Source: Fodinibius salsisoli
Lineage (GTDB): Bacteria > Bacteroidota > Rhodothermia > Balneolales > Balneolaceae
Assembly: GCF_026229185.1 (NCBI RefSeq)
Contig: NZ_JAGGJA010000008.1
Span: 1-64,000 of the forward strand
Reading direction: 5' to 3'
Length of the DNA stretch: 64,000 bases
Shown: piece after piece, positions 1 through 15,373 of the stretch
Position numbering within the stretch: position 1 is the stretch's first letter
Layout of the letters: each line of letters begins with the position of its first letter
The notes under the pieces: model-generated
Database searches by the model: none
Told to the model about the DNA's origin: nothing
The model's input: only the letters and a program-made list of their open reading frames with translations
Made by a program: the position numbers and the translations under genes

Positions 1-300
1 CATCGCAAAATAGCGGATCAGTTGCCGAAATTTAGCTTCAGAAATTTTTGAACGCTTATAATACTTATTATTCATTGCATAGCAATATGTTACAAACTTT
101 TATAATATGCTATGCTTCACTAGACCCTAATCAAAGTCGTTAGTTATTCTTCTTTACCACTTTTGTACAGCTTTTTATCCATATTTATATTCCACCTTTT
201 GGCATGATCCAAAAGAAATTTAAAAGTACTTTCCTGTGCGTATATAACTTATTGATAGGCAGTAATTTACAGGTATTTATTATTTTTACTTATATTGGTG
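1..300. other. Left flank, no supported gene
   Basis: No complete gene is visible. On the plus strand an open frame runs in from the window edge and stops at 49-51, which could be the last 16 codons of a gene, but this is too short to identify. An imperfect inverted repeat with arms around 77-88 and 106-116 (GCATAGC/GCTATGC) could form a hairpin. The 13-mer ATGATCCAAAAGA at 204-216 recurs exactly at 9219-9231, on the other side of the mobile element. Confidence 0.4.
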
Positions 301-321
301 AGGACAATCAAAGGACAATAT
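301..321. repeat. Left copy of 21-bp repeat, candidate att or integrase arm site
   Basis: Two AGGACAAT units lie in tandem 11 bp apart. The 21 bases match 8806-8826 at 17 positions, and the last ten (AGGACAATAT) are identical. The right copy sits at the integrase 5' end, where attachment or arm-type sites are usual. The paired unit structure fits arm-type integrase binding sites as well as a recombination core. No tRNA gene is seen at either end. Confidence 0.4.
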
Positions 322-327
322 TTAATT

Positions 328-849
328 TTAATGAGCGTCCCTTATAGCTTCTGATATTGTATTTAAATCTATTGTGATTTCTTGTTCTTCATTGTAGAAG
401 GATTCATAAGTACAGTAAATAGAAATATTTTCTATTACTTTGGCTAAAACATCCAAATCAATATCCATTATTCTTATTAAACAAAAACTTTCTCCAATCT
501 CTAAAGCGCTGTTATCACTTAACGCACTATATTCTAACTTGACACTTTTATCAATATCTAAACCTTTTATATTTTCCTCTAACTCTTTCTTTATCTTATT
601 CTGAATCTCTATTGAATTCTTTCCATCTATTTTTTCATCATTAATCTTTACATAGAATTCTGTTATTATAGCAGGGCCTAATCCTTTATTATAAATTTTG
701 ACATCAAAACCATTATCCAAATTGTGAATTGATTTTCTATGTTGTAGTAATGGTTTTACTGATTTACGATTATGTTCCTTCATTTTACTTAAGCCTCGAT
801 AAGTAAAGAAAACAGCTACTACTGATATAAATATTGAAATGTATTCCAT
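328..849 (-). CDS. Membrane-anchored protein of unknown function (element cargo)
   Basis: A 173-residue protein. Residues 2-19 form a single hydrophobic segment followed by a basic stretch (RGLSKMKEHNRKS), so the protein is probably anchored by its N-terminus with the rest in the cytoplasm. The remainder alternates strand-like segments (VKIYNKGLGPAIITEFYVKIND) with a charged helix near residues 78-100, and gives no family I recognise. It is the last gene at the left end of the mobile element, the usual place for accessory cargo such as phage-exclusion genes, but that role is only a guess from position. A terminator for the upstream gene lies just before its start. Confidence 0.6.
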   Translation of the reverse strand: MEYISIFISVVAVFFTYRGLSKMKEHNRKSVKPLLQHRKSIHNLDNGFDVKIYNKGLGPAIITEFYVKINDEKIDGKNSIEIQNKIKKELEENIKGLDIDKSVKLEYSALSDNSALEIGESFCLIRIMDIDLDVLAKVIENISIYCTYESFYNEEQEITIDLNTISEAIRDAH

Positions 850-869
850 AAATGAATTTTTGGATCTAA

Positions 870-911
870 AATAAAAATAGAAAAGCCGTGAAGCTACTAA
901 ACTTCACGGCT
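870..911 (-). terminator. Rho-independent terminator after the 75-residue protein gene
   Basis: A perfect 10-bp stem (AGCCGTGAAG at 884-893 with CTTCACGGCT at 902-911) is followed on the minus strand by a T-rich run (870-883). It lies 87 bases past the stop of the gene at 998-1225. Confidence 0.75.
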
Positions 912-997
912 CATATACGTTGGCTTATCTCATAACATCAAGACAATTCTAACATAGTATTTGCTTATTATTTTTCAAAATATTTACAGGATCATCT

Positions 998-1225
998 TTA
1001 TTCTGTATCTTCTAATAAATCCTCTCTTATCTGATTAAATATTTCCTCAGCTTCTTCTATTGAATCTGCTGTTAAAGTTTGATCCATATCGCTATAAATA
1101 AATTTACCTCTCCAGTCACGAATTAAATCATTAACAATCTTTTGAAAGTCTGATATTGTATTTTCTGGGGCATCATTTCTATTGTTAATCTTCTCTATTA
1201 ACTCAACTCTTGTAATTCTGAACAT
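998..1225 (-). CDS. Small acidic protein, unknown
   Basis: A 75-residue, strongly acidic protein (C-terminal half rich in E and D, ending EDLLEDTE) predicted to be mostly helical. No family is recognised. It is preceded by a 9-bp stem-loop at 1242-1267 and followed by a clear terminator at 870-911, so it is probably a single-gene transcript inside the mobile element. Small acidic proteins in phages and satellites are often inhibitors or DNA mimics, but nothing in the sequence shows that here. Confidence 0.55.
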   Translation of the reverse strand: MFRITRVELIEKINNRNDAPENTISDFQKIVNDLIRDWRGKFIYSDMDQTLTADSIEEAEEIFNQIREDLLEDTE

Positions 1226-1241
1226 ACTGATATGTATTTTT

Positions 1242-1267
1242 ATTAATCTTGGTGAAGTAAGATTAAT
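1242..1267. promoter_or_regulatory. 9-bp palindromic stem-loop upstream of small gene
   Basis: ATTAATCTT and AAGATTAAT form a perfect inverted repeat around an 8-base loop, 17 bases upstream of the start at 1225. No T-run follows on either strand, so an operator or 5'-UTR structure is more likely than a terminator. Confidence 0.35.
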
Positions 1268-1425
1268 AGGGTAGCCATCAAAATGATGATTATCAAATAA
1301 ATGTCATTATATGCTATAAATGCCGTTTATTTGATTTTTTGACTTTGTAGGATTGATTCTAAAGACCTTAAAAAATTTAGTAATGGTTATGTATGCCTTA
1401 TCTATTCCCACATGTGATATGTATG

Positions 1426-1731
1426 CTATATAGCACTTGCTGACTCTGTAAACTCATCTAATGATTGTATAGATAGCTGTTTATGCCAGTCGTTAATCTC
1501 TACATCATATTTCACAATCTGCTGATGTAGATCCGTATAATAATCTGTTGCTAAATCTTTAATATCTGCTGAATTGTATTCCTCCTGCATCTCCTTGAGA
1601 AGTTGAACTAAATATGCAACTGATGATATATCTCTGTCTGTTAATTCGTCGTATGAATCATTCTCTTTAAGTTGATACTGGTAACAATGATATACTTTTT
1701 TTCCGTATTCGTTTAAGGTTTCAATATCCAT
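1426..1731 (-). CDS. Small helical protein, unknown (element gene)
   Basis: A 101-residue protein, mostly helical, with the segment LTDRDISSVAYLVQLLKEM in the middle. Its ATG overlaps the stop of the preceding 132-residue gene by one base (TAATG), so the two are probably translationally coupled and may act together. The pattern of a D-x-x-x-V-A-Y-L helix near residues 33-47 loosely recalls phage terminase small subunits of the P27 type, but this is too weak to assign a function. Confidence 0.6.
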   Translation of the reverse strand: MDIETLNEYGKKVYHCYQYQLKENDSYDELTDRDISSVAYLVQLLKEMQEEYNSADIKDLATDYYTDLHQQIVKYDVEINDWHKQLSIQSLDEFTESASAI

Positions 1732-2129
1732 TAGCCTAATAGTTTTTCTTTAGCTTTCTGTTTTTCCTGTTGCTCTCTTTCTTCATCTCTTTTTTTCTGC
1801 TGTCTGGTGGAATCTGGATTGATAAAATTTGTTGCTAAAGGATAAAGTTTTAACTCTCCTATAAGCTTAGATATTTTGACCTCATAGCGAAAGTATGCTT
1901 TTCTTAGATCTGCTAAAGCTGACTCATCATCTGTAGTTATCATTTTTTGAATTACTTCTTTCTGCTGTACTTCCATGAAAATTAAATTTTCAATTCTACT
2001 AAGGAATGCCTTATCTAAATTTTCTCTTTCGAGATAATATTTACAATAAACCCGCCATTGGGATTTAGCGTATTCAGAATCTAACTGTTTTAATAATTTT
2101 GGTAATTGTGGTACTGATTTATATTTCAT
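1731..2129 (-). CDS. Putative phage terminase small-subunit-like protein
   Basis: A 132-residue protein with a good ribosome binding site (AGGAG, 4 bases before ATG). The N-terminus YKSVPQLPK, then WRVYCKYYLE and a helix SRIENLIFMEVQ, align with the 104-residue protein encoded at 3662-3976 (YKTIPNVPK, FRKYCQKKL, SDIRSIRTLCFLE), so the two look like paralogues. The segment LIGELKLYPLATNFINPDS followed by a basic tail is reminiscent of the end of P27-type small terminase subunits, which select DNA for packaging. A satellite carrying its own TerS to redirect packaging would fit, but the assignment rests on pattern only. Coupled by a TAATG overlap to the next gene. Confidence 0.5.
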   Translation of the reverse strand: MKYKSVPQLPKLLKQLDSEYAKSQWRVYCKYYLERENLDKAFLSRIENLIFMEVQQKEVIQKMITTDDESALADLRKAYFRYEVKISKLIGELKLYPLATNFINPDSTRQQKKRDEEREQQEKQKAKEKLLG

Positions 2130-2147
2130 CTCTCCTGATTTTTAAGT

Positions 2148-2237
2148 TTAAAAATTTACCCCCCAAACGTTTTTTGATTTTTTTTTCTGCTGAGTCGGTG
2201 ATTTATAGAATCGACCTTTAGAGCCTGAAAACGGCAT
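2148..2237 (-). CDS. 29-residue basic peptide with strong Shine-Dalgarno
   Basis: A very short frame beginning MPFSGSKGRFYKS with a run of four lysines or serine-lysine pairs in the middle, ending GVNF. The strongest ribosome binding site of the element precedes it (AGGTAGGGGGA directly before ATG). Its stop lies 18 bases before the start of the 132-residue gene, which has its own AGGAG site. The peptide is highly basic and could bind nucleic acid. Evidence that it is expressed is the SD sequence, spacing and operon position. Function unknown. Confidence 0.5.
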   Translation of the reverse strand: MPFSGSKGRFYKSPTQQKKKSKNVWGVNF

Positions 2238-2283
2238 TCCCCCTACCTTTTTGTATGTTATATAATAGTGTTGTTAAGCAAAG

Positions 2284-2319
2284 AGAGCCTGCCAACCTCG
2301 ATGGACTGACAGGCTCTAC
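2284..2319 (-). terminator. Hairpin between capsid gene and downstream genes
   Basis: AGAGCCTG (2284-2291) pairs with CAGGCTCT (2312-2319). The minus strand continues with CTCTTTGCTT, a weak T-rich tail. It could attenuate transcription from the capsid gene into the 29- and 132-residue genes. Confidence 0.4.
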
Positions 2320-2403
2320 AATCATATACTAAGACAGTTCTAAAACTTTTCAATGACTAAAAGAAACTACACCTGCCTGTTTTTTGCTCTCTCATTAAGA
2401 GAG

Positions 2404-2482
2404 ATTAAAAGAACCTGAAGGCAGTTTGAGATAGATAATCTATAAAAACATATAAATGCAATAGATGTGCTGACTGCCTTCA
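2404..2482 (-). terminator. Probable terminator of the capsid gene
   Basis: GAAGGCAGT (2417-2425) and ACTGCCTTC (2473-2481) form a 9-bp stem starting 11 bases after the capsid stop codon, with an AT-rich 47-base loop, and the minus strand then reads GGTTCTTTTAATC. The long loop makes it a less typical intrinsic terminator. A second small hairpin (CTCTCT/AGAGAG) lies just beyond at about 2388-2404. Confidence 0.45.
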
Positions 2483-2491
2483 TTAATTTGT

Positions 2492-3649
2492 TTACTGACT
2501 TTCAATACGTACGAAGCTGGAAGGATCTAAGTGAAGTAGATCATATCGTGCTACTGCCAGCCACGTGGTTCCGAATCTATTTGCGGTAACTGAATTGTAC
2601 TTCTCTAACGTTACGTTCATCTGAAAAGCATAGATCAAGTTACTTGCATCTCCTACGTAAGCAGTACCATTTGACAAATTAGCATCTGTAAATGTGGGAA
2701 CATCTCTAATCGTTGAGGGTGCATCTTGGTACCTGCCGTTATTATCTGTAGATAATGAAATATCTTCCCACGTCGCTGGGCTATAGATAAAGCTTACGTT
2801 CTCCTGCTCTACATTTTGTTCAATCAATTGCCTGTTCGCTTTAACAAATTCACCGTGTGTAACCGAACCGCTATAAGTCTGGGTTTGTGTTACTTTTGAA
2901 TTTAAAGCTGATGGTTCGGCACTGCCTGATGCAGTATAACTTTTCTCCATAATAGCATTTGAAAGACTATTTGTTAAGGCCAATGATAAAGCATCTCCAC
3001 CATTGCGACTATCCTGCATCATCTCTCTTGAGACTACAAAGTGACTCATTACAGTATTTGAATCTACTTTGATACTGCCGAAGTGATCGCCTGTGTCTGC
3101 TGTTTCTTCAACTAATTCTTCATGAAATACAGCATTAGGAGTTGAATCTACTGTGATATACTTCGTGTTATTATCGACTTGTGCCGTTAGTGCTCCCGCC
3201 TGGATTAACTTATTTTTCTTTCGTACTCGGTCGATAATTTGAGATGAAACGACTTCTGAAAGTTCGTAATTATCTGACGTTACACTGTTGTTAATGAAGT
3301 CTTTTTGCTCATCTGTAATGGGCTTATCTACAATAGCCGTTAAAGCATCTTCGAGCTGGATATCACTGTTTGAAGGTGTGTAAAGTCTATCCGCTGAATT
3401 GTATAATTTTGTCTTCTTTTTGTTGTCGTTCATTTGAATCTCTTGATTTAAATTATTGCTTCCTATTTTTTCGTAATTATCGTCGTTTATCTCTCTATCT
3501 TTTTTGGCTTCGTTATACTTCTTTTCTAACTCTTTAAATTCCTTTTCTGCTGAGTTATAAGCTTCAACGTTATTTGACTCATTATGCTGAGTCATTTCAT
3601 TTAGTTTATCGTTCATTTCTGTTTTTATTTCTCTTAATGTCTTTCTCAT
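2492..3649 (-). CDS. HK97-family phage major capsid protein
   Basis: A 385-residue protein with the layout of an HK97-fold major capsid protein. Residues 1-75 are a charged, coiled-coil-like delta (scaffold) domain. The shell domain follows from about residue 100, with the N-arm and spine region (SSQIIDRVRKKNKLIQAGAL), an E-loop-like stretch around TKYITVDSTPNAVFHEELVE, and the axial part with SFIYSPATWEDI and the C-terminal FGTTWLAVARYDLLHLDPSS. Such proteins assemble the icosahedral head and are normally cleaved after the delta domain by a prohead protease. No protease or portal gene is visible beside it. Flanked by two related small terminase-like proteins. In a satellite it may build a small capsid or remodel a helper head. 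Confidence 0.8.
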   Translation of the reverse strand: MRKTLREIKTEMNDKLNEMTQHNESNNVEAYNSAEKEFKELEKKYNEAKKDREINDDNYEKIGSNNLNQEIQMNDNKKKTKLYNSADRLYTPSNSDIQLEDALTAIVDKPITDEQKDFINNSVTSDNYELSEVVSSQIIDRVRKKNKLIQAGALTAQVDNNTKYITVDSTPNAVFHEELVEETADTGDHFGSIKVDSNTVMSHFVVSREMMQDSRNGGDALSLALTNSLSNAIMEKSYTASGSAEPSALNSKVTQTQTYSGSVTHGEFVKANRQLIEQNVEQENVSFIYSPATWEDISLSTDNNGRYQDAPSTIRDVPTFTDANLSNGTAYVGDASNLIYAFQMNVTLEKYNSVTANRFGTTWLAVARYDLLHLDPSSFVRIESQ

Positions 3650-3661
3650 TTTTAAAATAAT

Positions 3662-3976
3662 TTAGTTGTTAAAAATTTGGTTCTTAAGTTCTCTAATCTC
3701 TTTTGACAGTTTTATGTATGTATCATAATCTGCTAAATCATTGTAGTACTCATTGTCTTCGTCTTTCTCGTGTATTACATAGATTGCAAATTCAATCCTA
3801 TGCAGTATAACACCCTCTAAAAAACACAGTGTTCTAATTGATCGTATATCTGATGATCTTAATTCACCATTATTTAATTTTTTCTGGCAATACTTTCTAA
3901 AAAGCTTGACCGAATAACCATTAAAAACTTTTGGTACGTTGGGGATGGTCTTATATAATTTTTCTTGTTCTGCCAT
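3662..3976 (-). CDS. Small protein, paralogue of the 132-residue terminase-like protein
   Basis: A 104-residue protein starting MAEQEKLYKTIPNVPK. The block YKTIPNVPK, FRKYCQKKL and SDIRSIRTLCFLE matches the protein encoded at 1731-2129 in order and spacing, so they appear to have arisen by duplication. It lies 12 bases before the capsid start, which is where phages commonly have packaging or head genes. A terminase small-subunit or scaffold-type role is possible; I cannot assign one firmly. Part of an operon with the 47-residue gene upstream (39 bases apart). Confidence 0.55.
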   Translation of the reverse strand: MAEQEKLYKTIPNVPKVFNGYSVKLFRKYCQKKLNNGELRSSDIRSIRTLCFLEGVILHRIEFAIYVIHEKDEDNEYYNDLADYDTYIKLSKEIRELKNQIFNN

Positions 3977-4015
3977 TTTTTTATTCTCTCTTGAATAGTT
4001 CTAATTCCTGTTTAC

Positions 4016-4159
4016 TTACTTGCTCAATAAATAGTCTAACTTCGTTTGATACATCGATATATAGAAGTGTTTTTGCTCATCTTTTAAAGCCGGATTTTGG
4101 GCAAAGTCTTCTATCTTCTCTCTTAAATGTTTTATCTGTTTTTCTACTTTCTCCATCAT
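4016..4159 (-). CDS. 47-residue coiled-coil small protein
   Basis: A short frame beginning with two methionines (MMEKVEKQIKHLREKIEDF). The first 20 residues form an amphipathic charged helix, and a second helix ends the protein. AAGGAAG lies directly before the first ATG, so the second ATG at 4156 has the better spacing and may be the true start. The gene is 39 bases upstream of the 104-residue gene and the capsid gene and probably is the first gene of that operon. No family is recognised. Confidence 0.55.
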   Translation of the reverse strand: MMEKVEKQIKHLREKIEDFAQNPALKDEQKHFYISMYQTKLDYLLSK

Positions 4160-4308
4160 CTTCCTTGCTTAATCCTTTATCGATTGCTTACTATTACATA
4201 TAGATTAGCATAACTTTTCAGGTATATTTATTTGATATTTATTGGGCTTTATAGGCTATAAGAAGGGATTTAGTAAGGAAGTGCTGGAAGGGGATATATA
4301 TTTGTGCG

Positions 4309-4362
4309 TATATAGAAAAGGCTCAACCTGATATTGAATTGTTTTCTACAGGTTGAGCCTTT
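4309..4362 (-). terminator. Strong hairpin terminator
   Basis: AAGGCTCAACCTG and CAGGTTGAGCCTT form a 13-bp stem (4318-4330 and 4349-4361). The minus strand continues TTTTCTATATA. It lies downstream of the small minus-strand gene at 4457-4600 and separates it from the capsid operon. Confidence 0.6.
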
Positions 4363-4456
4363 CTGTAACGTAACAAAGTAAGTAATGAATTAGGAAAGCA
4401 AGTGAAGCACTCTGATGCTATTACATTTAAGTATTGATCAAAAGCATTTCATATCA

Positions 4457-4600
4457 TCATTGAATATTAATACAGTCAGATGCTTTCGTCGTTTTATCGT
4501 TTCCCTTTCTGGTAGATCCTTTGTTTTTTATTTCTTCCAAATAATATCGTGCTACATATTCGGCAAATCTATCAATCTTCTTATCAATGTAATGTATCAT
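4457..4600 (-). CDS. 47-residue small protein, unknown
   Basis: A short minus-strand frame (MIHYIDKKIDRFAEYVARYY at the start, then a lysine-rich region ending NIQ). The first half is an amphipathic helix with regular hydrophobic spacing, which is not expected by chance in such AT-rich DNA. A strong terminator follows 95 bases after the stop. No Shine-Dalgarno sequence precedes the ATG. The opposite-strand frame over the same bases is low-complexity and hydrophobic, and is taken to be its shadow. Confidence 0.4.
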   Translation of the reverse strand: MIHYIDKKIDRFAEYVARYYLEEIKNKGSTRKGNDKTTKASDCINIQ

Positions 4601-4898
4601 AATTATATTTTTTATTTGATGATTATTTTATTTCTGATGTATCGTTAATTATCAGTGATTTTATTTTATATTTATGTCTAAATGACAGCTTTTAATAATC
4701 ATCATATACATTAACACGTCTTCTATTTCATTAACGTTTTAGATAGTTATTTATTTGATTATTAATTTATCTTTTGATCATGGATGAAGTAAGAAGGAAG
4801 TGTATGAAATATTTTCTCTAAGTCTTTGGTGGGTGTGGGATCTATGTTATTTATGTTTATATAATATATATTAAATATACTACATTAAATCACTATAC

Positions 4899-4970
4899 GT
4901 TCCACGAGCTGAAGCGAAGCGAAAGCGTTATGCGTAGCGAAGCGGAGCGTCGGGGAGACAGGAGGGCAGA
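4899..4970. repeat. GC-rich patch with repeated GCGAAGCG units
   Basis: Inside a very AT-rich stretch, the bases around 4911-4951 repeat the unit GCGAAGCG (GAAGCGAAGCG, then GTAGCGAAGCGGAGCG). No reading frame explains it. It may be a protein-binding or packaging-type site, or recently inserted host DNA. Confidence 0.4.
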
Positions 4971-5055
4971 CACTATGATGCTCTTAGAGTAGCGCTTAAA
5001 TACTACCAACATAGTAGAAAGAAAATCGGCCTCTGTATGCTTCAGAGTTAATTTT

Positions 5056-5082
5056 AGCCTACCTCAAACGATCTCATATTTT
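5056..5082 (+). repeat. Iteron-like direct repeat, copy 1
   Basis: AGCCTACCT, six variable bases (CAAACG), then ATCTCATATTTT. The two fixed blocks (21 bases) are identical in all three copies. The motif TTTTAGGG follows about 12 bases after this copy and also follows copy 3. Confidence 0.7.
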
Positions 5083-5140
5083 TTTCCTATTTTTAGGGCT
5101 ATTTAAGTAACTACATTTAATGTTATTTTGTAATATATAG

Positions 5141-5167
5141 AGCCTACCTAAATCAATCTCATATTTT
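5141..5167 (+). repeat. Iteron-like direct repeat, copy 2
   Basis: Same bipartite motif with spacer AAATCA, 85 bases downstream of copy 1 (start to start). Confidence 0.7.
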
Positions 5168-5283
5168 ATACATATATGTTACCATTCCTTTCTTAATTTA
5201 TGCTCTTAGAAGTGAAGCCATCCCCTTAATATAGGCATTTATAGGCTTCAATAAGGGATATCTATTAATTGTGATTTATGTAG

Positions 5284-5310
5284 AGCCTACCTATATAGAT
5301 CTCATATTTT
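5284..5310 (+). repeat. Iteron-like direct repeat, copy 3
   Basis: Same bipartite motif with spacer ATATAG, 143 bases downstream of copy 2. It is the copy nearest to the replication-type gene, 219 bases before its ATG. Confidence 0.7.
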
Positions 5311-5400
5311 ATTCCATTTCGCACAATTTTAGGGACTTTCTATTTAGTTTAATATTGAAGTATATTAGCTAAGTTGTTGTTTTTATTCATCTTATTCTAA

Positions 5401-5486
5401 GTAAATATATTTACATAAAGTTGAATCTCAAACGTATGTAAATATAGACGATCAATAGAAATAAAATATAACTTATAATTGATCGT
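5401..5486. promoter_or_regulatory. Palindromes before the putative replication gene
   Basis: GTAAATATATTTAC at 5401-5414 is a perfect 14-bp palindrome. ACGATCAAT (5448-5456) and ATTGATCGT (5478-5486) form a perfect 9-bp inverted repeat around 21 A/T-rich bases. GTAAATATA also recurs near 5437. They lie 40-130 bases before the ATG at 5529 and may be an operator or an origin unwinding region. Confidence 0.45.
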
Positions 5487-5528
5487 TATATAAACTCAAT
5501 AACATTTAAATTTTGCAACTACAACTAC

Positions 5529-7049
5529 ATGAAACAACTAACTATTTATAAACTTCAGAACTATAACCTAAAGTCAGAATTCAGAAAATTTCTTTATTCA
5601 GGAGAGTTTTTAAATCATCTGAAAAGTAAAGATGAGGAACACTATCAGAATGCAAAAAAAGACGAACTGGAAGCCGTTGACAAGTGGCTGAGGGATCAAG
5701 AAGAACAGAACTATAAACGACTGTTATTGCTACTGCATTCCCTTTATAATCCTTCACAAAAGTATGATGAACTTGTGGAGATGGTTCCACAGATGGCATC
5801 AATTCAGGAATCTTATTTAACTCCTAAATATCGGATGCTATTCCTTCGATTCCTTCAGCGAAAGAAGATAATAAACGTTAATGATTCATACACTTCAACA
5901 GAACATGCTAATGTAAACAGAGCTGAAGCAAAGAAGTATTGTATTGATCATAACTTTTACCACCAGAAATGGGATTGGGAACTTGAGACTATTAAAGTTA
6001 AAGATTCACTTTTCAATAAGTTTACTGGTAAAGAAGGTCCTTCTAAATTTGATAACTACCCAAAATGGACTTATAAAATCATTGACCAGCTGGACAGATG
6101 GTCGGTTGATGATGAAGGAATTGAGGATGTGGAAGGCATAAAAAAGTATCATTCGAGAAAACAGGGACAAGAGAAATTCACGTTTAAAAACTTTCGGGTT
6201 CACTGTGCCGAAGGTGGATTAGATTCAGATTTTAGGGATAGATTATTCCATACTGATCATCCTAATTTAGAGTACATAAGCTGGGATATAGATAACTCTT
6301 TCCCCTACTCTTTAGCTAACCAGCTTATCACGGCAACAAAGAAATATACTTCAACATCTATCTATAGTAATAAGAAATATAGATATGCAAAAGTTCAGTC
6401 TGATTTGGATGTGATTAATGAAACTGCTGAAATACTTCATACTGCCTGCAAGGATGATGAAAAAAAGGAAATAATAGTGAACAGTTTAACCAGCTTTTTT
6501 AAAAAAGGCGATGGAATAACTACGGAATTTATATTTCTTGACCTTAACGCTCAACTACTTGTGCAGTGTAATGATGAGTTAGATTTTCCGTCTGGACTGG
6601 TGGAAACTCTTGAGTATGATAATATATACTTATATATGTTACTTGCCTGTAGCGGGCTAATTTACGACGTTCCTGCGAATTACTTAGGAGTTGATAGAAA
6701 GGAATTTAAAAAGCCTTTTAATAAGTGTTTAAACTTTGAACCTAATGTGATATATCATAATGATGATCATATAGGAATTAAATTTTTAAAAGATTTTTTC
6801 CCTAAAATTATTAAAAGACTGATGAAAATAAACAAGAATGATAACGGACAATTTAACAACAGGATGGCCAGAATTGAGTTAACAAATACACGTGTTGTTA
6901 CTGACTATCTTATCGATAATAACCAGCCGTTCGTTCCTTTACAGGATGGAATTATGATTCCTAATAGGGTTAGAAATGAAGTAGATAATTTATTTCCAGC
7001 CGGGAATAAGCAACGGTTATTTTTGCCCTACAGTTTCGAAAAAATTTAA
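5529..7049 (+). CDS. Putative replication protein with single-subunit-polymerase-like palm motifs
   Basis: A 506-residue soluble protein, not matched to a named family. Its second half shows three blocks in the order expected for palm domains of A-family/T7-type polymerases. Block A is YISWDIDNSFPYSLA at about 249-263 (candidate metal-binding D253). Block B is VDRKEFKKPFNKCLNF at 388-403, an R/K-rich helix. Block C runs from ARIELTNTRVV (447-457) to PLQDGIMIP (470-478) with D473 where many such enzymes have HDS or HDE. Residues 1-200 are helical and charged. It is the only plus-strand gene of the element and follows the iteron-like region, which suits an origin-dependent replication protein. 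The palm assignment is inference. Q-D-G instead of H-D-S is unusual. Followed by a strong terminator. Confidence 0.5.
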   Translation: MKQLTIYKLQNYNLKSEFRKFLYSGEFLNHLKSKDEEHYQNAKKDELEAVDKWLRDQEEQNYKRLLLLLHSLYNPSQKYDELVEMVPQMASIQESYLTPKYRMLFLRFLQRKKIINVNDSYTSTEHANVNRAEAKKYCIDHNFYHQKWDWELETIKVKDSLFNKFTGKEGPSKFDNYPKWTYKIIDQLDRWSVDDEGIEDVEGIKKYHSRKQGQEKFTFKNFRVHCAEGGLDSDFRDRLFHTDHPNLEYISWDIDNSFPYSLANQLITATKKYTSTSIYSNKKYRYAKVQSDLDVINETAEILHTACKDDEKKEIIVNSLTSFFKKGDGITTEFIFLDLNAQLLVQCNDELDFPSGLVETLEYDNIYLYMLLACSGLIYDVPANYLGVDRKEFKKPFNKCLNFEPNVIYHNDDHIGIKFLKDFFPKIIKRLMKINKNDNGQFNNRMARIELTNTRVVTDYLIDNNQPFVPLQDGIMIPNRVRNEVDNLFPAGNKQRLFLPYSFEKI

Positions 7050-7125
7050 TAATTATTTATGGTTATGAACGTTTAAAAAGTGTTATTGAGAAGTTCTAAT
7101 AGAGTAGTTGCTATTTAGGACTTGA

Positions 7126-7159
7126 AGCCGTTAAGTTGATAGCTTGACGGCTTTTTTTA
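7126..7159 (+). terminator. Rho-independent terminator after the replication-type gene
   Basis: AGCCGTTAAG and CTTGACGGCT form a 10-bp stem with one G-T pair, followed by seven T residues. It ends the plus-strand transcript that stops at 7049. The remaining bases between 7050 and 7396 hold the integrase terminator and no gene. Confidence 0.85.
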
Positions 7160-7224
7160 TTTCCTCAAATCCAATATAACAGTCTAAAATTATAAAAAGT
7201 CTGGAATGTTGGATACCCATATTT

Positions 7225-7264
7225 CCAAAAATAAAGAACCCCGCTCAATTTTATTTAAACGGGG
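7225..7264 (-). terminator. Probable terminator of the integrase gene
   Basis: CCCCG (7239-7243) pairs with CGGGG (7260-7264), and the minus strand continues TTCTTTATTTTT. It lies about 130 bases after the integrase stop and faces the plus-strand terminator at 7126-7159. Confidence 0.5.
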
Positions 7265-7396
7265 ATTCCCTACTGTAGGATTCAATTCTAAGAGCTTAAA
7301 ATCTGTAAGTAAGGGTAGGACATGCCTGTATTTTTGTTATTTCCGTGAAAAGGTTGAAATATTGTGTTTGTGGGCTATATAAGGGGATTTTTGGGA

Positions 7397-8812
7397 TTAG
7401 AAAGGTAAAGATTCATCATCCGTTTTCTTCTGCTGTTGAGAAAGGTTTACAGACTCTTTTTTATCTGTAAATTTGGTGGCTTTATTAATACTGATCCCTC
7501 CTAATTTATCATCAATATCAGTTAATGGATTTTCGTCTTTAAGCTCCTGTTTTCTGAACTTTGAAAACTGTTTAAATAGTTCGTCGTGATAAGCATTTAA
7601 CGCTCTTTTTTTGGATGGAATATACTGACTCTTGACATACCATTTTTCCGTAACGTCTTGTTTGATTTTATGGTTTAGAACATACGAAATAGAAAAGGGA
7701 TCTACTTCTATATCTGCCATATGGGATGCCATAGAATGCCGTATCAAATGATTATTAAAATCATCTATTCCAGTTATGTTTTTAAGCTTCGATTGATAAT
7801 AATGAGTTGAGCTAAAAGGCTTATTGTTTCCCCTTGAAGATTCGAAAATATAATTTGAATTCCCTGTAAATTGATGCTGTTCCACAAACATATTTTTTAT
7901 TCTTTCGCTCATGGGTAGCACGTGAGGTTTACCGTTTTTTGTTGATTCTGCTGGAATGGTTATTTGCATATCATCTGATGATAAATCATCCCATTTAAGG
8001 TGCATAGTTTCGGTTGTTCTACTGCCTAATAGAATTAAAATTTTATAGTAAAGGGATAAGGGATTTTTTAAATCGTTTGAGGCTTTCCAGACTTTGTAAA
8101 GCTCTTTGAATGATAAATACCTGTCATCATTATCATCATCTTTTGATTTGACTTTATAGGGGCTGGTATCTGAAATGATATTTTCTGTAACGTATCCCCT
8201 GTCTTTAGCATAGTTGAATAATATATGTGATACGCGCCGGATATTATTCGCCATGTAATTTTTTCCCTTATTGGCATAACTATCTAAAAAGTTTGTTATA
8301 TCCTCTGAGGTAATATCATCAATTCTTCTTTTATGAAATGGTTTCAAATGATTGTCCAGAATCTGCCTATATGAATCTTTTGTAGCTTTTCTAAGGTGGC
8401 CGAAATGGATATTTTTAAATTTGGGAATGACATCAATTAATTTAGTACCAGCGTTCTTTCGTTTGTTTCTTTGTTTTCGAACGTTGAGATCTATCCCTTT
8501 TGCCACATCTTTTTTTAAATTGTGGGCTTCCTGCCTTGCTTCTTTGATACCTATGGTAGGGAAACGGCCTATTGTGTAGCGTTTGGCATAGCCGTTGATA
8601 CTATACCTATAGATCCAACTTTTTGTGCCTGATTCAAAAATTCTAATTCCTAAATTTGTTATTTCTGAATCCTTTATTGTGATACTTTTTTTATCTGTCG
8701 GGGATGGATGAGATTCTATAAATTCGTTTGTTAACTTGAGTCTCATATTATATTTTGTCTTAAATTGATGCTTACAGGCTTTCAGGGCCATTCCATCCCT
8801 ATTATAGGACAT
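7397..8812 (-). CDS. int: P4-type tyrosine site-specific integrase
   Basis: A 471-residue tyrosine recombinase that integrates and excises the element. From about residue 24 to 110 it has an arm-type DNA-binding domain of the P4-integrase sort (LGIRIFESGTKSWIYRYSI, IGIKEARQEA), then a core-binding helical domain (about 125-215) and the catalytic domain. Active residues visible are R265 (GSRTTE), H355 and R358 (HLIRH), H381 (LNHK) and the likely nucleophile Y392 (KWYVKSQY). The C-terminus has an extra 60 residues of polar sequence. The start is uncertain: ATG at 8812 has no SD, ATG at 8791 has AGGG in front, and ATG at 8746 (MRLKL) matches the usual family N-terminus. It is the right-most gene of the element. 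Confidence 0.9.
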   Translation of the reverse strand: MSYNRDGMALKACKHQFKTKYNMRLKLTNEFIESHPSPTDKKSITIKDSEITNLGIRIFESGTKSWIYRYSINGYAKRYTIGRFPTIGIKEARQEAHNLKKDVAKGIDLNVRKQRNKRKNAGTKLIDVIPKFKNIHFGHLRKATKDSYRQILDNHLKPFHKRRIDDITSEDITNFLDSYANKGKNYMANNIRRVSHILFNYAKDRGYVTENIISDTSPYKVKSKDDDNDDRYLSFKELYKVWKASNDLKNPLSLYYKILILLGSRTTETMHLKWDDLSSDDMQITIPAESTKNGKPHVLPMSERIKNMFVEQHQFTGNSNYIFESSRGNNKPFSSTHYYQSKLKNITGIDDFNNHLIRHSMASHMADIEVDPFSISYVLNHKIKQDVTEKWYVKSQYIPSKKRALNAYHDELFKQFSKFRKQELKDENPLTDIDDKLGGISINKATKFTDKKESVNLSQQQKKTDDESLPF

Positions 8813-8826
8813 TTTGAGGACAATAT
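8806..8826. repeat. Right copy of 21-bp repeat, candidate att or arm site
   Basis: AGGACATT, a short spacer and AGGACAATAT. It matches 301-321 at 17 of 21 positions. It overlaps the first possible integrase start codon, but lies just upstream if the integrase starts at 8791 or 8746. It could be an attachment site, an arm site or an integrase autoregulatory operator. Confidence 0.4.
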
Positions 8827-9593
8827 ATAACTGATATAGGGTGTATAAAGTGCCGTTTAAATCGTATGAAGGGCATTAAATCTTTTAGTCTTAATCCAAA
8901 AGGCTTTTAAAAAATCTAGGCTGATCCCTGACTTTTCAAGGCCAATAGGTCTCTTCTTGAGATATGGTGCTTTTGATTCTTCTTCCGGCCTAACGAATCA
9001 TGGGCGGAGGTTCGAAGGATGATCAGGATCATTTCACACCGGTGGCATTTGTGAAGCTGCTCTCTAACGGGAAGGACCATTGAAGTGATCCCATCCGAGA
9101 CCGGAGCGCTCCATGATTCTCAGCCGGTGAGTTTTTGGATTACTTTTTTGTCATTCAAAAAAGTGATAGAAGTACGACATTGTTCTAAAAATGGAGCAAC
9201 AGTTTTCTTACGCCTCGTATGATCCAAAAGACACCATAAAACAAAGAGCTTCATTCCTTCACCCTCTTGACCTCCCTCCGTAATAAATACAGGCTACTGA
9301 CCCTTATACTGGAAGTGACCGCTTAGTTTTAATATCATCCCATTCATAAACTAAATCTTTATTTAGTACCGTTTGAGCTATGACACAACCCGATACCTTA
9401 TCTCAATCCAGGAGTCAACAGGTGCAGCAGTGGCGCTGCCAGACTGTTTGTAAAAACCGTACATCGTAATCTATTTATGATAGAGGGGCATCCTGAAGAA
9501 CTGATCAGGAATTATAAAATTATAAGTCCCCGGATACCGAAAATAATAAGCTGCGACAGTACCTAATCCAGAATCTTAGACCTTAACCAGACG
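8827..9593. other. Intergenic region without genes
   Basis: No gene is supported on either strand. The middle (8985-9164) has strong nested inverted repeats described separately. The rest (9232-9593), which leads into the nitrilase gene, shows no tRNA, no clear promoter and no terminator that I can support. Confidence 0.6.
8985..9164. repeat. Long nested inverted repeat, possible structured RNA or interspersed repeat
   Basis: Helices nest in order: CCGGC/GCCGG (8985-8989, 9123-9127), GAATCATGG/CCATGATTC (8995-9003, 9111-9119, perfect) and GGATCATTTCA with TGAAGTGATCC (9026-9036, 9081-9091, one G-T pair). Next to it ACTTTTTTG/CAAAAAAGT (9142-9150, 9156-9164) is a perfect 9-bp hairpin. The layout could be a stable RNA or a dispersed palindromic repeat. 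It matches no RNA class I can name (not tRNA, tmRNA, SRP or a common riboswitch). Confidence 0.5.
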
Positions 9594-10574
9594 ATGAGCA
9601 ACCACCAAGAAAATCAACACCTCAATATTGCAGTTGCCCAGTTTCAACCCAAAGACGGAGATAAAGCCTATAACCTGTCTGTCATTGAAAAACTGACCAG
9701 GCAGGCCAAACAAGAAGGAGCAGACCTCATCAGTTTCCACGAAATGTGCATCACAGCCTATACTTTTACCAAAGATCTGGCCCTCAAGGAGATGAACGAA
9801 CTGGCAGAAGAGGTACCCGATGGCGAAAGTACGCAGAAGTTAATGCACCTGTCAAAACAATACGATATCCCTATACTCGCCGGACTGGTAGAACAGGAGA
9901 ATGACACCTTCTACAATACCTACATTGCGGTCTCAGGGGATGGAGTCCTGGCCAAATTCAGAAAGCTGCATCCCTTCATCAATGGTCATATCTCACCGGG
10001 TAACGAATACGTCGTCTTCGATCTGCTCGGATGGAAATGTGGCATCCTCATTTGCTATGACAACAATATCATCGAAAATGTGCGTGCAACGGCCCTGTTG
10101 GGCGCCGAGGTGATCTTTGCGCCTCATGTGACCGGTTGTACTCCCTCCACCATGCCTGGCAGAGGTTTTGTAGATGATGCGCTGTGGCAAAACCGCGAAG
10201 ACGATCCCGTTTCACTGCGCCTCGAATTTGACGGCCCCAAGGGACGACGATGGCTTATGCGATGGCTACCCGCCCGCTCCTATGACAACGGCGTGTATTA
10301 CGCCTTCACCAACCCGATAGGCTACGATGGGGATCAGCTCAAAAATGGCAATTCCATGATCCTCGATCCCTATGGCGAAGTTCTCTCCGAGATAAAATCC
10401 TTTGATGATAAGATAACCGTTGCACGAATTACCAGGGAAAAGCTGAAACAGTCCGGTGGATGGCGATACCGCAACGCCCGCCGGCCGCAGCTGTACCAGG
10501 ATATCCTCGGGCAGGACCATCAGTCGGAAACCAAGCCCGTTTGGATGAAGAACGAAGAAGAGGGATCAAAATGA
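9594..10574 (+). CDS. Nitrilase-superfamily amidohydrolase (carbon-nitrogen hydrolase)
   Basis: A 326-residue cytoplasmic enzyme of the carbon-nitrogen hydrolase family, which cleaves amides or nitriles through a cysteine thioester. The catalytic triad is visible as E50 (ISFHE), K124 (KFRKLHPF) and C154 (LICYDNN). The whole alpha-beta-beta-alpha domain is present, up to the DPYGEVLSE strand near residue 260. The substrate cannot be told from sequence; beta-ureidopropionase, N-carbamoylputrescine amidase and aliphatic amidase are all related. It stands alone: the next gene (ctaA) runs towards it and ends nine bases after its stop. The insert with GRGFVDDALWQNREDDP is compatible with an amidase acting on a medium-size substrate. 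Confidence 0.85.
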   Translation: MSNHQENQHLNIAVAQFQPKDGDKAYNLSVIEKLTRQAKQEGADLISFHEMCITAYTFTKDLALKEMNELAEEVPDGESTQKLMHLSKQYDIPILAGLVEQENDTFYNTYIAVSGDGVLAKFRKLHPFINGHISPGNEYVVFDLLGWKCGILICYDNNIIENVRATALLGAEVIFAPHVTGCTPSTMPGRGFVDDALWQNREDDPVSLRLEFDGPKGRRWLMRWLPARSYDNGVYYAFTNPIGYDGDQLKNGNSMILDPYGEVLSEIKSFDDKITVARITREKLKQSGGWRYRNARRPQLYQDILGQDHQSETKPVWMKNEEEGSK

Positions 10575-12738: not shown

Positions 12739-13599
12739 TTACTTCAACACCTCTTTTGCTCGTGTTATGCGGTCGGTAGTAATACCATCTACGCCCATTT
12801 TGGCCATACGATTCATAGCTTTACCTTCATTGACGGTCCACACATACAGCTTCATCCCGGCCTCATGGCTCGCTTTTACCAGTTCTGGGGTAGCCCCTTC
12901 AAAATGAATATCCAGACCATCGATATTATGATCTTTTACCTTTTGAAGGAGTTCTGCATCAATAGGTTCATACTGACCCATCGCATTCCGTGAAGCCGAG
13001 CGCAACCAGTAGGCCGGTACCTCCGGCAACTGCTCTTTACTGGCTTTTACCACTTCCCAATCAAAGGCAATGATTACCATCTGTTCCTTCTTATCGCTCT
13101 GCTCAATAATCTCTTTGATATAGGGTACCGCACGCTCCGAATCCTTTATTTCGATAAACAATTGTTTGCCCTTGGGGACGGAAGCCACTATCTCTTCCAA
13201 AAAGGGGATCTTCTCGCCTTTAAACGCTTCATCTTTGAATGAACCCACATCCACCGTTCGCAGTTCTTCTGAACTGGTTTCCATAACCGATAAGTCTTTA
13301 TCACCGGTACGGTCAGTCGTTTTATCGTGAATGCCCACAACCCTTTTATCGGCTGATAAATATACATCCACTTCTACCGCATCGGCATCTTTTTGCCAGG
13401 CCGACTCTACCGCAGCCATCGTGTTTTCCGGATTCTTATAGGAATCCCCGCGATGGGCGATAATTTCGATGGAGGGGGGTACCTTTGCCTGATTATCCTG
13501 CTGTTCAGAAGTCTCGCCTTCACTGCTCCCGCATCCCTGGAGTACCAGCAGACAGCATAATGTAGATAACAACAATCCCAATTTTGAGCTCATATTCAT
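12739..13599 (-). CDS. Lipoprotein glycerophosphodiester phosphodiesterase
   Basis: A 286-residue exported lipoprotein (hydrophobic N-terminus, lipobox LQGC at about 20-23). The rest is a GDPD TIM barrel that hydrolyses glycerophosphodiesters to sn-glycerol 3-phosphate and an alcohol. The catalytic motif HRGDSYKNPENT, the metal residues in VEVDVYLS and the histidine in GIHDKTTDR are all present, as is the closing IDGITTDR-like end (VDGITTDRITRAKEVL). It is the last gene of the minus-strand block with PhoD and SusCD. With glpF and glpK further upstream, a role in using extracellular phospholipid headgroups for phosphate and glycerol is likely. Confidence 0.92.
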   Translation of the reverse strand: MNMSSKLGLLLSTLCCLLVLQGCGSSEGETSEQQDNQAKVPPSIEIIAHRGDSYKNPENTMAAVESAWQKDADAVEVDVYLSADKRVVGIHDKTTDRTGDKDLSVMETSSEELRTVDVGSFKDEAFKGEKIPFLEEIVASVPKGKQLFIEIKDSERAVPYIKEIIEQSDKKEQMVIIAFDWEVVKASKEQLPEVPAYWLRSASRNAMGQYEPIDAELLQKVKDHNIDGLDIHFEGATPELVKASHEAGMKLYVWTVNEGKAMNRMAKMGVDGITTDRITRAKEVLK

Positions 13600-13699
13600 C
13601 TTAAAAAAGTTTTTATTTACGTTTAAGAGGCTTTTGCAAAAGCCTTCGTTTAAATTACCATGATAATCATATTGTCAAAATATAGGAAAAAGCTAACCG

Positions 13700-15373
13700 C
13701 TATACCCGCTTTGCTCCCGGGGTGCCATTTTCAACCACAAACGAGGCCCTTGTTTTTATAGGAGCGCCCTTTTTCTCTACATAGGGCATGACCCGAAAGT
13801 CGGCTTTGAGCTGTTCCGGTGTTACCTGGCAGCGCACATAGCCCCGCTGGCGATTAACGAATTTTATCCACGGATTTTCGGCTAAATACTTCTTCCCGGA
13901 TGCGGTTATATCAGCCCCGTCACCAGCAGATGAGATGCTTGTTCCCACCAGTTCCGTTCCCAACACCGGCGATTGTGGATCACTAAAATCTTCTAACAAA
14001 TCGCTCACAAAATTACGATGGATATCTCCGGTTAAGACTACAAAGTTTGAGACTTCATGCTCTTTGACAGCCTCAAATAGTCGGTTACGTGATGCGGTGT
14101 AACCATCCCACTTATCCATGCTATAGCTCTCACCCGGACCTTCCTTGCGATCCATTTGTCCCATAAATACCTGCTGGGGCAAGATATCCCACACCGCTGA
14201 TGATTCCTGCAGCTCATTAAATAGCCACTGCTCCTGCTCATCTCCGAGCATTGTACGCGCCGGATCCAGTCGCTCAGCACAGTTTGCACTATGACTTGTT
14301 CCACATGCAAAATCAGTTCGGAACTGGCGGGTGTCAAGCACATTGAATTGTGCCAGATTCCCATAAATAAATCGCCGGTACAACTGTGTCTCAATATCAG
14401 CGCCCGGCTTGGCCGGCATCCGCAACGGCATATGCTCATAATAAGCCTTGAACGCTCGCGCTTTCAGATCCTGGAATGCAGCTTCATTTTGAGGATCAGC
14501 CGATTCATTTATTCCCGCCCAATTATTTTTCACCTCGTGGTCATCCATCGTCACAACCCAAGGGAAAGCTGCATGGGCTGCTTGCAGGGAAGGATCGCTC
14601 TTATATTGCGCATGCCGGATACGAAAATCAGCCAGTGAGTGAATAGTCTTCTTGGGAATATGTCCCCGTCCTATATGTCCTTGTCCATCGCCTTCATAAA
14701 TATAATCCCCCAGGAAGAAGACGACATCCAGGTCTTCATTAATCATGTGATCATAGGCCGTATAATAGCCTGAGGCGTAATTTTGGCAAGAGGCAAAGGC
14801 AAAATTAAGCTGACTGACCATCTCATTGGCCGCTGGAGTGGTTTTTGTCCGCCCCACGGGACTCACTTCCGATCCGGCCTTAAATCGATAGTAGTATTCA
14901 CGGTTTGGTTGTAGACCTTCAACTTCGATATGTACCGAATGGGCCCATTGTGATTTCGCGATAGCAGTACCGCTTTTCACAATGTTATTAAACGAATCAT
15001 CCTCGGCTATTTCCCATTGTACTTCACGAGGTTCAGATTCCATGCCGCCCCCAATAGTGAGCGGTTCGGGAGCCAGGCGTGTCCACAGCACAACGCCATC
15101 AGGCAGGGGATCGCCCGAAGCAACTCCCAGTTGAAATGGGTAACCTTCCGTTTTAGAAGGCGTATGAGGAACCGGGGCATTGGTTGCTTTGCTATTACTA
15201 CACGCGAGAGGCCATAATGATCCGATGATACCACCACCGATCACAAAACTGCCCAGCCGCCGGGTTCTTTTCAAAAAGCCCTTTCGATCTATAGACTCTG
15301 ACAGCCAACCCTGTTCCCTGGACTGTTCGTGTTCTGATGACTTTTTCCCATCGTCGTTATTTTTATTGCTCAT
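13700..15373 (-). CDS. phoD: PhoD-family alkaline phosphatase/phosphodiesterase
   Basis: A 557-residue exported metallophosphoesterase. The N-terminal region RKGFLKRTRRLGSF followed by a hydrophobic stretch and PLACS looks like a Tat-type lipoprotein signal, so the enzyme is probably folded before export and membrane-anchored. An N-terminal beta-sandwich (PhoD_N, about 75-170) precedes the catalytic domain with ASCQNY, FFLGDYIYEGDG, TMDDHEVKNNW and TGDIHRNF, which carry the Fe/Ca ligands of PhoD. Such enzymes release phosphate from mono- and diesters, including phospholipids and teichoic acids. It sits between SusD and the glycerophosphodiesterase, 100 bases from the latter. Confidence 0.9.
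   Translation of the reverse strand: MSNKNNDDGKKSSEHEQSREQGWLSESIDRKGFLKRTRRLGSFVIGGGIIGSLWPLACSNSKATNAPVPHTPSKTEGYPFQLGVASGDPLPDGVVLWTRLAPEPLTIGGGMESEPREVQWEIAEDDSFNNIVKSGTAIAKSQWAHSVHIEVEGLQPNREYYYRFKAGSEVSPVGRTKTTPAANEMVSQLNFAFASCQNYASGYYTAYDHMINEDLDVVFFLGDYIYEGDGQGHIGRGHIPKKTIHSLADFRIRHAQYKSDPSLQAAHAAFPWVVTMDDHEVKNNWAGINESADPQNEAAFQDLKARAFKAYYEHMPLRMPAKPGADIETQLYRRFIYGNLAQFNVLDTRQFRTDFACGTSHSANCAERLDPARTMLGDEQEQWLFNELQESSAVWDILPQQVFMGQMDRKEGPGESYSMDKWDGYTASRNRLFEAVKEHEVSNFVVLTGDIHRNFVSDLLEDFSDPQSPVLGTELVGTSISSAGDGADITASGKKYLAENPWIKFVNRQRGYVRCQVTPEQLKADFRVMPYVEKKGAPIKTRASFVVENGTPGAKRV

Follow-up and report, generated by a model that had tools for sequence, protein, structure and literature searches.

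We analysed a 64,000-nucleotide stretch of DNA (the window) that forms the start of contig C42 of the 4.85-Mb genome of Fodinibius salsisoli (genome G000), and found that positions 207–8902 hold an 8.7-kb island that has both of its ends inside the window, carries genes for an integrase and a phage-type capsid protein, and is devoid of a full virion gene set, as phage satellites in general are. This island, about 8.7 kb long, is probably a phage satellite in integrated form and a member of a family of capsid-carrying islands in the Balneolaceae. On our best reading, satellites of this family bring a capsid protein and a small terminase subunit (TerS) and borrow the portal, the large terminase subunit (TerL), connectors, tail and lysis functions from a helper phage. 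An earlier reading of the same DNA (hereafter the original prediction) had proposed a mobile satellite in a Balneolota setting, a proposal supported by the ends found in the window, by relatives at other sites, by an insertion site that is empty in relatives of one member, and by the similar plan of seven portal-less loci.

The G+C content of the island is 32.0%, compared with 46.3% in the flanks (the left flank comprising 206 bases only), which agrees with the AT-rich block predicted originally. The ends had been placed at 301 and 8826; these positions correspond to arm-type repeats of the sequence TGAGGACAAT (299–308 and 8815–8824), and the actual ends, 207 and 8902, are marked by a 9-bp core, ATCCAAAAG, repeated directly at 207–215 (attL) and 8894–8902 (attR), outside both. 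Taken in full, the arm-type repeats of the left end (TGAGGACAAT and AGGACAATAT) occupy 299–321 and are direct repeats of that of the right end (8815–8826). Joining the flanks at the core restores a dispersed intergenic repeat of the genome: against the copy at locus L006 the joined flanks align through the core with a score of 93, compared with 57 for the unjoined left junction and 65 for the right. Against the copy at L007 the best alignment of the joined flanks (score 94) bypasses the core and the right junction alone scores 91; a match at L007 that spans the core is present in separate repeat searches of the genome. A genome-wide search with the joined flanks gave 11 rows, of which two are the island's own junctions, five are other places matched through the core (query bases 32–40) to base 58 or beyond, two stop at base 50, a point that the left junction of the island also reaches, and two have no convincing span of the core. 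Because the joined flanks restore the dispersed repeat, the element is 207–8902 and nothing to the left of base 1 is part of it. The original prediction held that portal and TerL genes directly left of the window would make the element an ordinary prophage; with the left end at 207 such genes cannot belong to the element, and that condition does not apply. A prophage extending left of base 1 is likewise ruled out by the left end at 207 and by bases 1–127, a repeat that we take to be insertion sequence-like in family.

Copies of the dispersed repeat that serves as insertion site, centred on CCTTTTGGCATGATCCAAAAGGCT, are found in this genome at C1:5166–5213, C41:103361–103403, C33:174457–174493, C11:388999–389046 and C2:125498–125539. 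A 13-bp repeat, ATGATCCAAAAGA (204–216 and 9219–9231), was considered as the att core and dropped, since it is the 9-bp core that restores an intact repeat; the stretch 9219–9231 is apparently another fragment from the dispersed repeat family. The repeat at bases 1–127, whose reverse strand reads YAMNNKYYKRSKISEAKFRQLIRYFAM, is common to three contig ends, namely that of the window and both ends of contig C43 (L016 and L017).

Eight main open reading frames (ORFs) lie between 328 and 8812, and searches of Pfam and PHROG upheld the predicted integrase and capsid genes. The integrase gene (7397–8812, minus strand) encodes a tyrosine recombinase of 471 aa with arm-binding, central and catalytic domains (PF13356 Arm-DNA-bind_3, 3.5e-17; PF22022, 6.6e-8; PF00589, 1.5e-17; PHROG_1, 1.1e-51), a set that we take to denote the P4 type. 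The capsid gene (2492–3649, minus strand) encodes an HK97-type major capsid protein of 385 aa that matches PF05065 (1.5e-16) and the major head protein family PHROG_10 (4.4e-29). A profile of five island capsids matches HK97 gp5 chains in PDB (7e-6), and about 125 residues precede the PF05065 domain of the window capsid as a candidate delta domain. Portal, TerL, protease, connector and tail families gave no match among the eight main ORFs, in agreement with the absences listed originally. The only ORF big enough for a portal or TerL is one of 506 aa, the sole large unnamed ORF, which lies apart from the capsid gene on the opposite strand. The att-bounded element therefore differs from an ordinary prophage, which would hold portal, TerL and tail genes between its att sites.

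The gene beside that of the capsid (3662–3976, minus strand) encodes a 104-aa putative TerS. By BLASTP this protein resembles the TerS of a prophage from the same genus (E 1e-8 as a single comparison, 5.6e-6 in an all-against-all set), a reference protein that matches PF05119 (5.8e-9) and has TerL and portal genes downstream. The best PDB match of its AlphaFold model (pLDDT 81) is the HK97 small terminase (Z 10.4 over 93 residues, root-mean-square deviation 2.4), the next unrelated row of the ranking having Z 7.4, in a comparison where helical folds easily reach middling Z values. Foldseek gave the HK97 small terminase an E of 0.6 and the best viral structural match, P27 TerS, an E of 0.027, neither of them significant. 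Taken together, sequence similarity and modelled fold point to a TerS of the P27/HK97 type. The gene at 1731–2129 (minus strand) encodes a 132-aa paralogue that matches the 104-aa protein (BLASTP, 4e-6) and gave no match when compared with the prophage TerS directly; the two were foreseen in the original prediction as TerS-like paralogues. A helical-looking protein of 101 aa (1426–1731, minus strand), which aligns with the other two and matches no family at the cut-off, is a weak candidate for a third.

To place the island among its relatives, we searched 92 Balneolaceae genomes for PF05065 capsids and took a PF04860 portal as near if it lay within 2 kb. Eleven capsids were found in seven genomes. 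More of them lack a nearby portal than have one, seven (the window; L013 and L014 in G360; L024 and L050 in F. roseus; L033 and L034 in G414) to three (G293, C1 of G360, and G434), and one (G406), with capsid and portal on different contigs, was counted neither way. Two of the genomes with relatives are of the same genus, a metagenome-assembled genome named 'uncultured Aliifodinibius' (G360) and that of Fodinibius roseus DSM 21986 (G394), which places one family member in a named strain. Direct repeats of 9 to 23 bp bound six of the seven portal-less loci, L050 having only a 13-bp candidate. The six bounded islands measure 8431–8920 bp (mean 8694, standard deviation 161), and with L050 (about 9003 bp) added the mean is 8738 bp. 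Insertion sites are the 3′ ends of tRNA genes (L014, L024, L033 and L034), the start of dnaJ (L013) and the dispersed repeat (window). Our search for empty sites covered the dnaJ site of L013. Of the 11 other genomes of the genus, 10 have this site intact and the eleventh (G394) gave a one-sided match only; the presence of this island varies among relatives, and a lack of such variation is what the original prediction had named as speaking against mobility.

Within the family, length and general plan are kept while replication genes, cargo and capsid lineage differ. L024 encodes, in order, a P27 TerS (5.8e-22), a 138-aa protein, the capsid protein, a ClpP-type protease (1.2e-26; 51% identical to the protease of a genus prophage) and a kinase-fold protein. 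L014 encodes an AlpA-type helix-turn-helix protein (HTH_17, PF12728, 1.1e-15), a DUF3631 protein, a PriCT_2 primase (4.3e-13), a TerS-like protein (PF05119, 8.8e-4, under the cut-off) and the capsid protein; AlpA and primase families gave no match among the window proteins. L013 and L034 have in common a gene that is 58% identical, with a weak primase match for the L013 copy (PHROG, 0.005), and have distant capsids (25% identical). In L033 and L034, which reside in one genome, the TerS-like gene is 89% identical and the capsids 21%. L050 (6506–14380) is island-like, with a capsid, a TerL (PF04466, 3.1e-10) and no PF04860 portal. For comparison, TerS, TerL, portal, protease and capsid genes follow one another in a prophage of G360, and those for portal, protease and capsid are present in G293.

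Could these loci be decayed prophages that have lost portal and TerL? Decay does occur, as illustrated by a broken island-type capsid near a tRNA-Asn in G108 (L015, 9939–10499), and the kinase-fold protein of L013 is a mere 91-aa fragment compared with its longer relative. Remnants are nevertheless not expected to have direct-repeat ends, intact main ORFs, a near-constant length and a similar plan at different sites, nor does decay fit the finding that 7 of the 11 family capsids have no nearby portal. Moreover, in all eight gene pairs of relatives compared (none including a window gene, the window's nearest relatives being too distant), the rate of nonsynonymous difference (pN, 0.07–0.32) is far below that of synonymous difference (pS, 0.42–0.85); dS is saturated in four of the pairs, and dN/dS is 0.07–0.16 in the other four. 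We therefore regard decay as a very improbable account of the family.

Kinase-fold cargo lies 3′ of the capsid gene in L024 (12070–12750) and L013 (10392–10667) and matches defence-kinase models of PADLOC (MkoA, 3.6e-8; mad6, 3.8e-9); the accessory ORFs of the window gave no PADLOC match. This cargo would suit a phage-defence island whose capsid protein acts as a decoy to disrupt helper assembly, with spread as a by-product, and Ccm, the capsid homologue of the satellite SaPIbov5, also blocks its own helper (PMC5052747). A decoy has no need of TerS, integrase, att sites or a near-constant length, and we consider defence an improbable main function. Least credible of all, to the point of being negligible, is a host function like that of an encapsulin or a gene-transfer agent: the HK97 fold is what the island capsids have in common with such systems, and against it stand their matches to the phage family PF05065 and to HK97 gp5, their location in islands beside integrase and TerS, the restriction of PF05065 to 7 of 92 family genomes, and the six bounded islands at different sites.

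The capsids themselves bear on whether the island protein makes a head. In a tree of 14 capsids, seven from islands and seven of phage type (among the latter a partial stretch from G434 on a long branch, and that of G406, whose capsid and portal are on separate contigs), the capsids of the window, L013, L014, L024 and L033 form one clade (support 97/98), that of L050 pairs with the phage-type capsid of G406 (100/100), and that of L034 is placed separately, on a weakly supported branch. A single island clade is rejected (approximately unbiased test, p 2.7e-10), and the island capsids would hence stem from at least two captures. The extension ahead of PF05065 comprises 125 residues in the window capsid, 93 in that of L050 and 145–169 in the other five, compared with 134, 151 and 183 in the three phage capsids measured. 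With five island capsids inside the phage range, a shortened delta domain is no common trait of the group.

It is possible, although rather unlikely in our view, that the island protein makes no shell alone and does no more than switch the size of the helper capsid, or poison it, as an admixed subunit, as proposed for Ccm. Ccm is a satellite HK97-fold homologue, distant from the helper capsid, that yields no SaPI-sized capsids alone (PMC5052747), and the extensions in the window and L050 capsids are shorter than those of all three phage capsids. This idea fits less well with the five of seven island capsids whose extensions fall inside the phage range, with L024, which adds its own protease and a P27 TerS, or with L050, which has its own TerL, the last two of which suit a true head; nor does it fit with the clade formed by five of the seven. 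The L050 capsid sits outside that clade and pairs with a phage-type one. We mildly favour the island capsid protein as the shell itself; that it is instead a minor component making the helper shell smaller, in the manner suggested for Ccm, is plausible by analogy, if somewhat short of even.

We envisage the following life cycle for such a satellite. A helper phage would induce the island and the integrase would excise it, the 506-aa protein might then replicate it from iterons, and the island TerS would direct helper TerL to the DNA of the island. The capsid protein of the island may build, or force, a small shell with room for about 8.7 kb, for which the helper would supply portal, protease, connectors, tail and lysis functions. 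The near-constant length of the islands across differing replication genes and sites argues for a packaging limit, and so perhaps for unusually small HK97-type heads. HK97 has a T=7 head that holds about 40 kb. Were head volume to scale with T^1.5, simple arithmetic would give capacities of about 11 kb at T=3 and about 17 kb at T=4, room for one or two islands.

Several observations weigh against a satellite of this kind. None of the TerS-like proteins of the window matches PF05119 directly, and a profile comparison of the window TerS with the TerS group of the other islands gave no match. No match to PF04860 or PF03354 was found in the window genome, so that a resident helper of that type is absent on this evidence; these are single families, PF03354 missed the PF04466-type TerL of L050 in G394, and other portal or TerL families may be encoded elsewhere in the genomes. 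One prophage in G360 has both families; none of the seven islands has an exact DNA word of more than 17 bases in common with it, and no packaging site shared with this prophage was found. Scans of IMG/VR yielded no island, the capsid match there (L053) lying in a phage with portal and TerL by its ORF list. As to distribution, searches with island capsids traced such islands to the same family and no other: a draw of 394 genomes from the phylum added two weak matches (L059 and L060), both in phages with portal and TerL by their ORF lists. In a phage collection, the window capsid and the TerS-like protein of L034 had no match, and the capsids of L013 and L034 reached about 24–32% identity among the matches listed.

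The candidate replication protein is the 506-aa product of 5529–7049 (plus strand). Upstream lie three iteron-like direct repeats of 45 nt (5040–5084, 5125–5169 and 5268–5312, plus strand), of which the outer copies share 69% and 82% identity with the central copy; these confirm the iteron-like region of the original prediction and form a candidate origin (5040–5312). The protein matched no family in Pfam, PHROG or a further family search, had no convincing sequence match in PDB and no match in the phage collection or in plasmids, and its structure model (pLDDT 38) is useless. The replication gene thus looks new, as had been suggested, and the palm polymerase domain proposed for it, for which family, PDB and model searches gave no support, is neither confirmed nor refuted. 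A 27% homologue is encoded in another element of this genome (L021, on contig C22; positions 8928–10457 and 13529–15190 of that locus), which adjoins tRNA-Asn, includes a gene that reads as serine-recombinase-like, and has no PF05065 capsid. This homologue has no iterons, and we dropped the idea that iterons are a general mark of proteins of this type.

Of the remaining features of the window island, the gene at 328–849 (minus strand) encodes an accessory protein of 173 aa in a family of unknown function (phrog_35671, 2e-9), a 75-aa ORF at 998–1225 (minus strand) has no significant Pfam or PHROG family, and a strong terminator-like hairpin (fold z-score -4.5) lies downstream of the capsid gene at 2255–2330 (minus strand). 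Among the relatives, about 250 bp of noncoding DNA 3′ of the capsid gene is conserved between L034 (about 10220–10490) and L033 (about 7930–8195) and might serve in packaging or control; the idea of a structured RNA there found no support (z-scores -0.05 and -1.2, no Rfam family). A gene that we take to be RadC-like is found near the island end in L034 (10517–10984) and downstream of the prophage tail genes in G360 (L039, 15995–16480), the two being 34% identical.

More tentatively, and at slightly below an even chance, the islands may constitute a distinct Balneolaceae satellite class in which an island capsid lineage forms the whole shell, sized to about 8.7 kb, with a helper portal and a helper TerL guided by island TerS. 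If so, they would represent a state between classical phage-inducible chromosomal islands (PICIs), which borrow a whole capsid, and capsid-forming PICIs (cfPICIs), which borrow only tails. The islands would extend capsid-carrying satellites to the Balneolota, may use unusually small HK97-type heads, and offer a way to test how a capsid protein is matched to a portal that its own element does not encode, and by what route satellites move from whole-head to tail-only borrowing. The open-access literature covered, with subscription papers and most preprints outside its scope, yielded no report of such islands, which is weak evidence of novelty. The kind of element is already known; within the reach of that literature search, what is new lies in its lineage, phylum, gene set and tight length.

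Comparison with known satellites places the island as follows. P4-like satellites are marked by an alpha primase-helicase and by Sid, Psu and Delta. The window island has what we take to be the integrase layout of that group; it differs in that Pfam and PHROG gave no match to those markers among its ORFs and in having a capsid gene of its own. PICMIs are likewise small islands with few genes, and relatives of the window island have, like them, an integrase and an AlpA-type helix-turn-helix gene; unlike the window island, PICMIs have no capsid-remodelling gene and are located beside fis (PMC10803314). The original prediction likened the island in particular to cfPICIs. A capsid gene and TerS of its own (and in L024 also a protease) are points of likeness, but cfPICIs encode portal, TerL, protease, connectors and HNH, and carry all head and packaging genes (PMC10690885); the five just named were not found among the window island ORFs, so that the comparison is mistaken in its detail. 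The Gram-negative PICIs EcCICFT073 and PmCI172, compared by description only, also encode a capsid protein homologue, and PmCI172 gives small heads; they belong to the Proteobacteria, and the role of their capsid gene is not established in the report on them (PMC6092414). By analogy, the closer precedent appears to be the cos-type PICI SaPIbov5, whose HK97-like capsid homologue Ccm is required for small capsids and insufficient alone, by a mechanism that the authors leave open (PMC5052747). The window island is like such PICIs in having an HK97-fold capsid homologue without portal or TerL, and dependence on a helper for all other particle components, as well as the small-capsid strategy, would be common to both; set against Ccm by description only, it differs in belonging to another phylum, in its length of about 8.7 kb, in its TerS-like genes beside the capsid gene, and in its replication genes.

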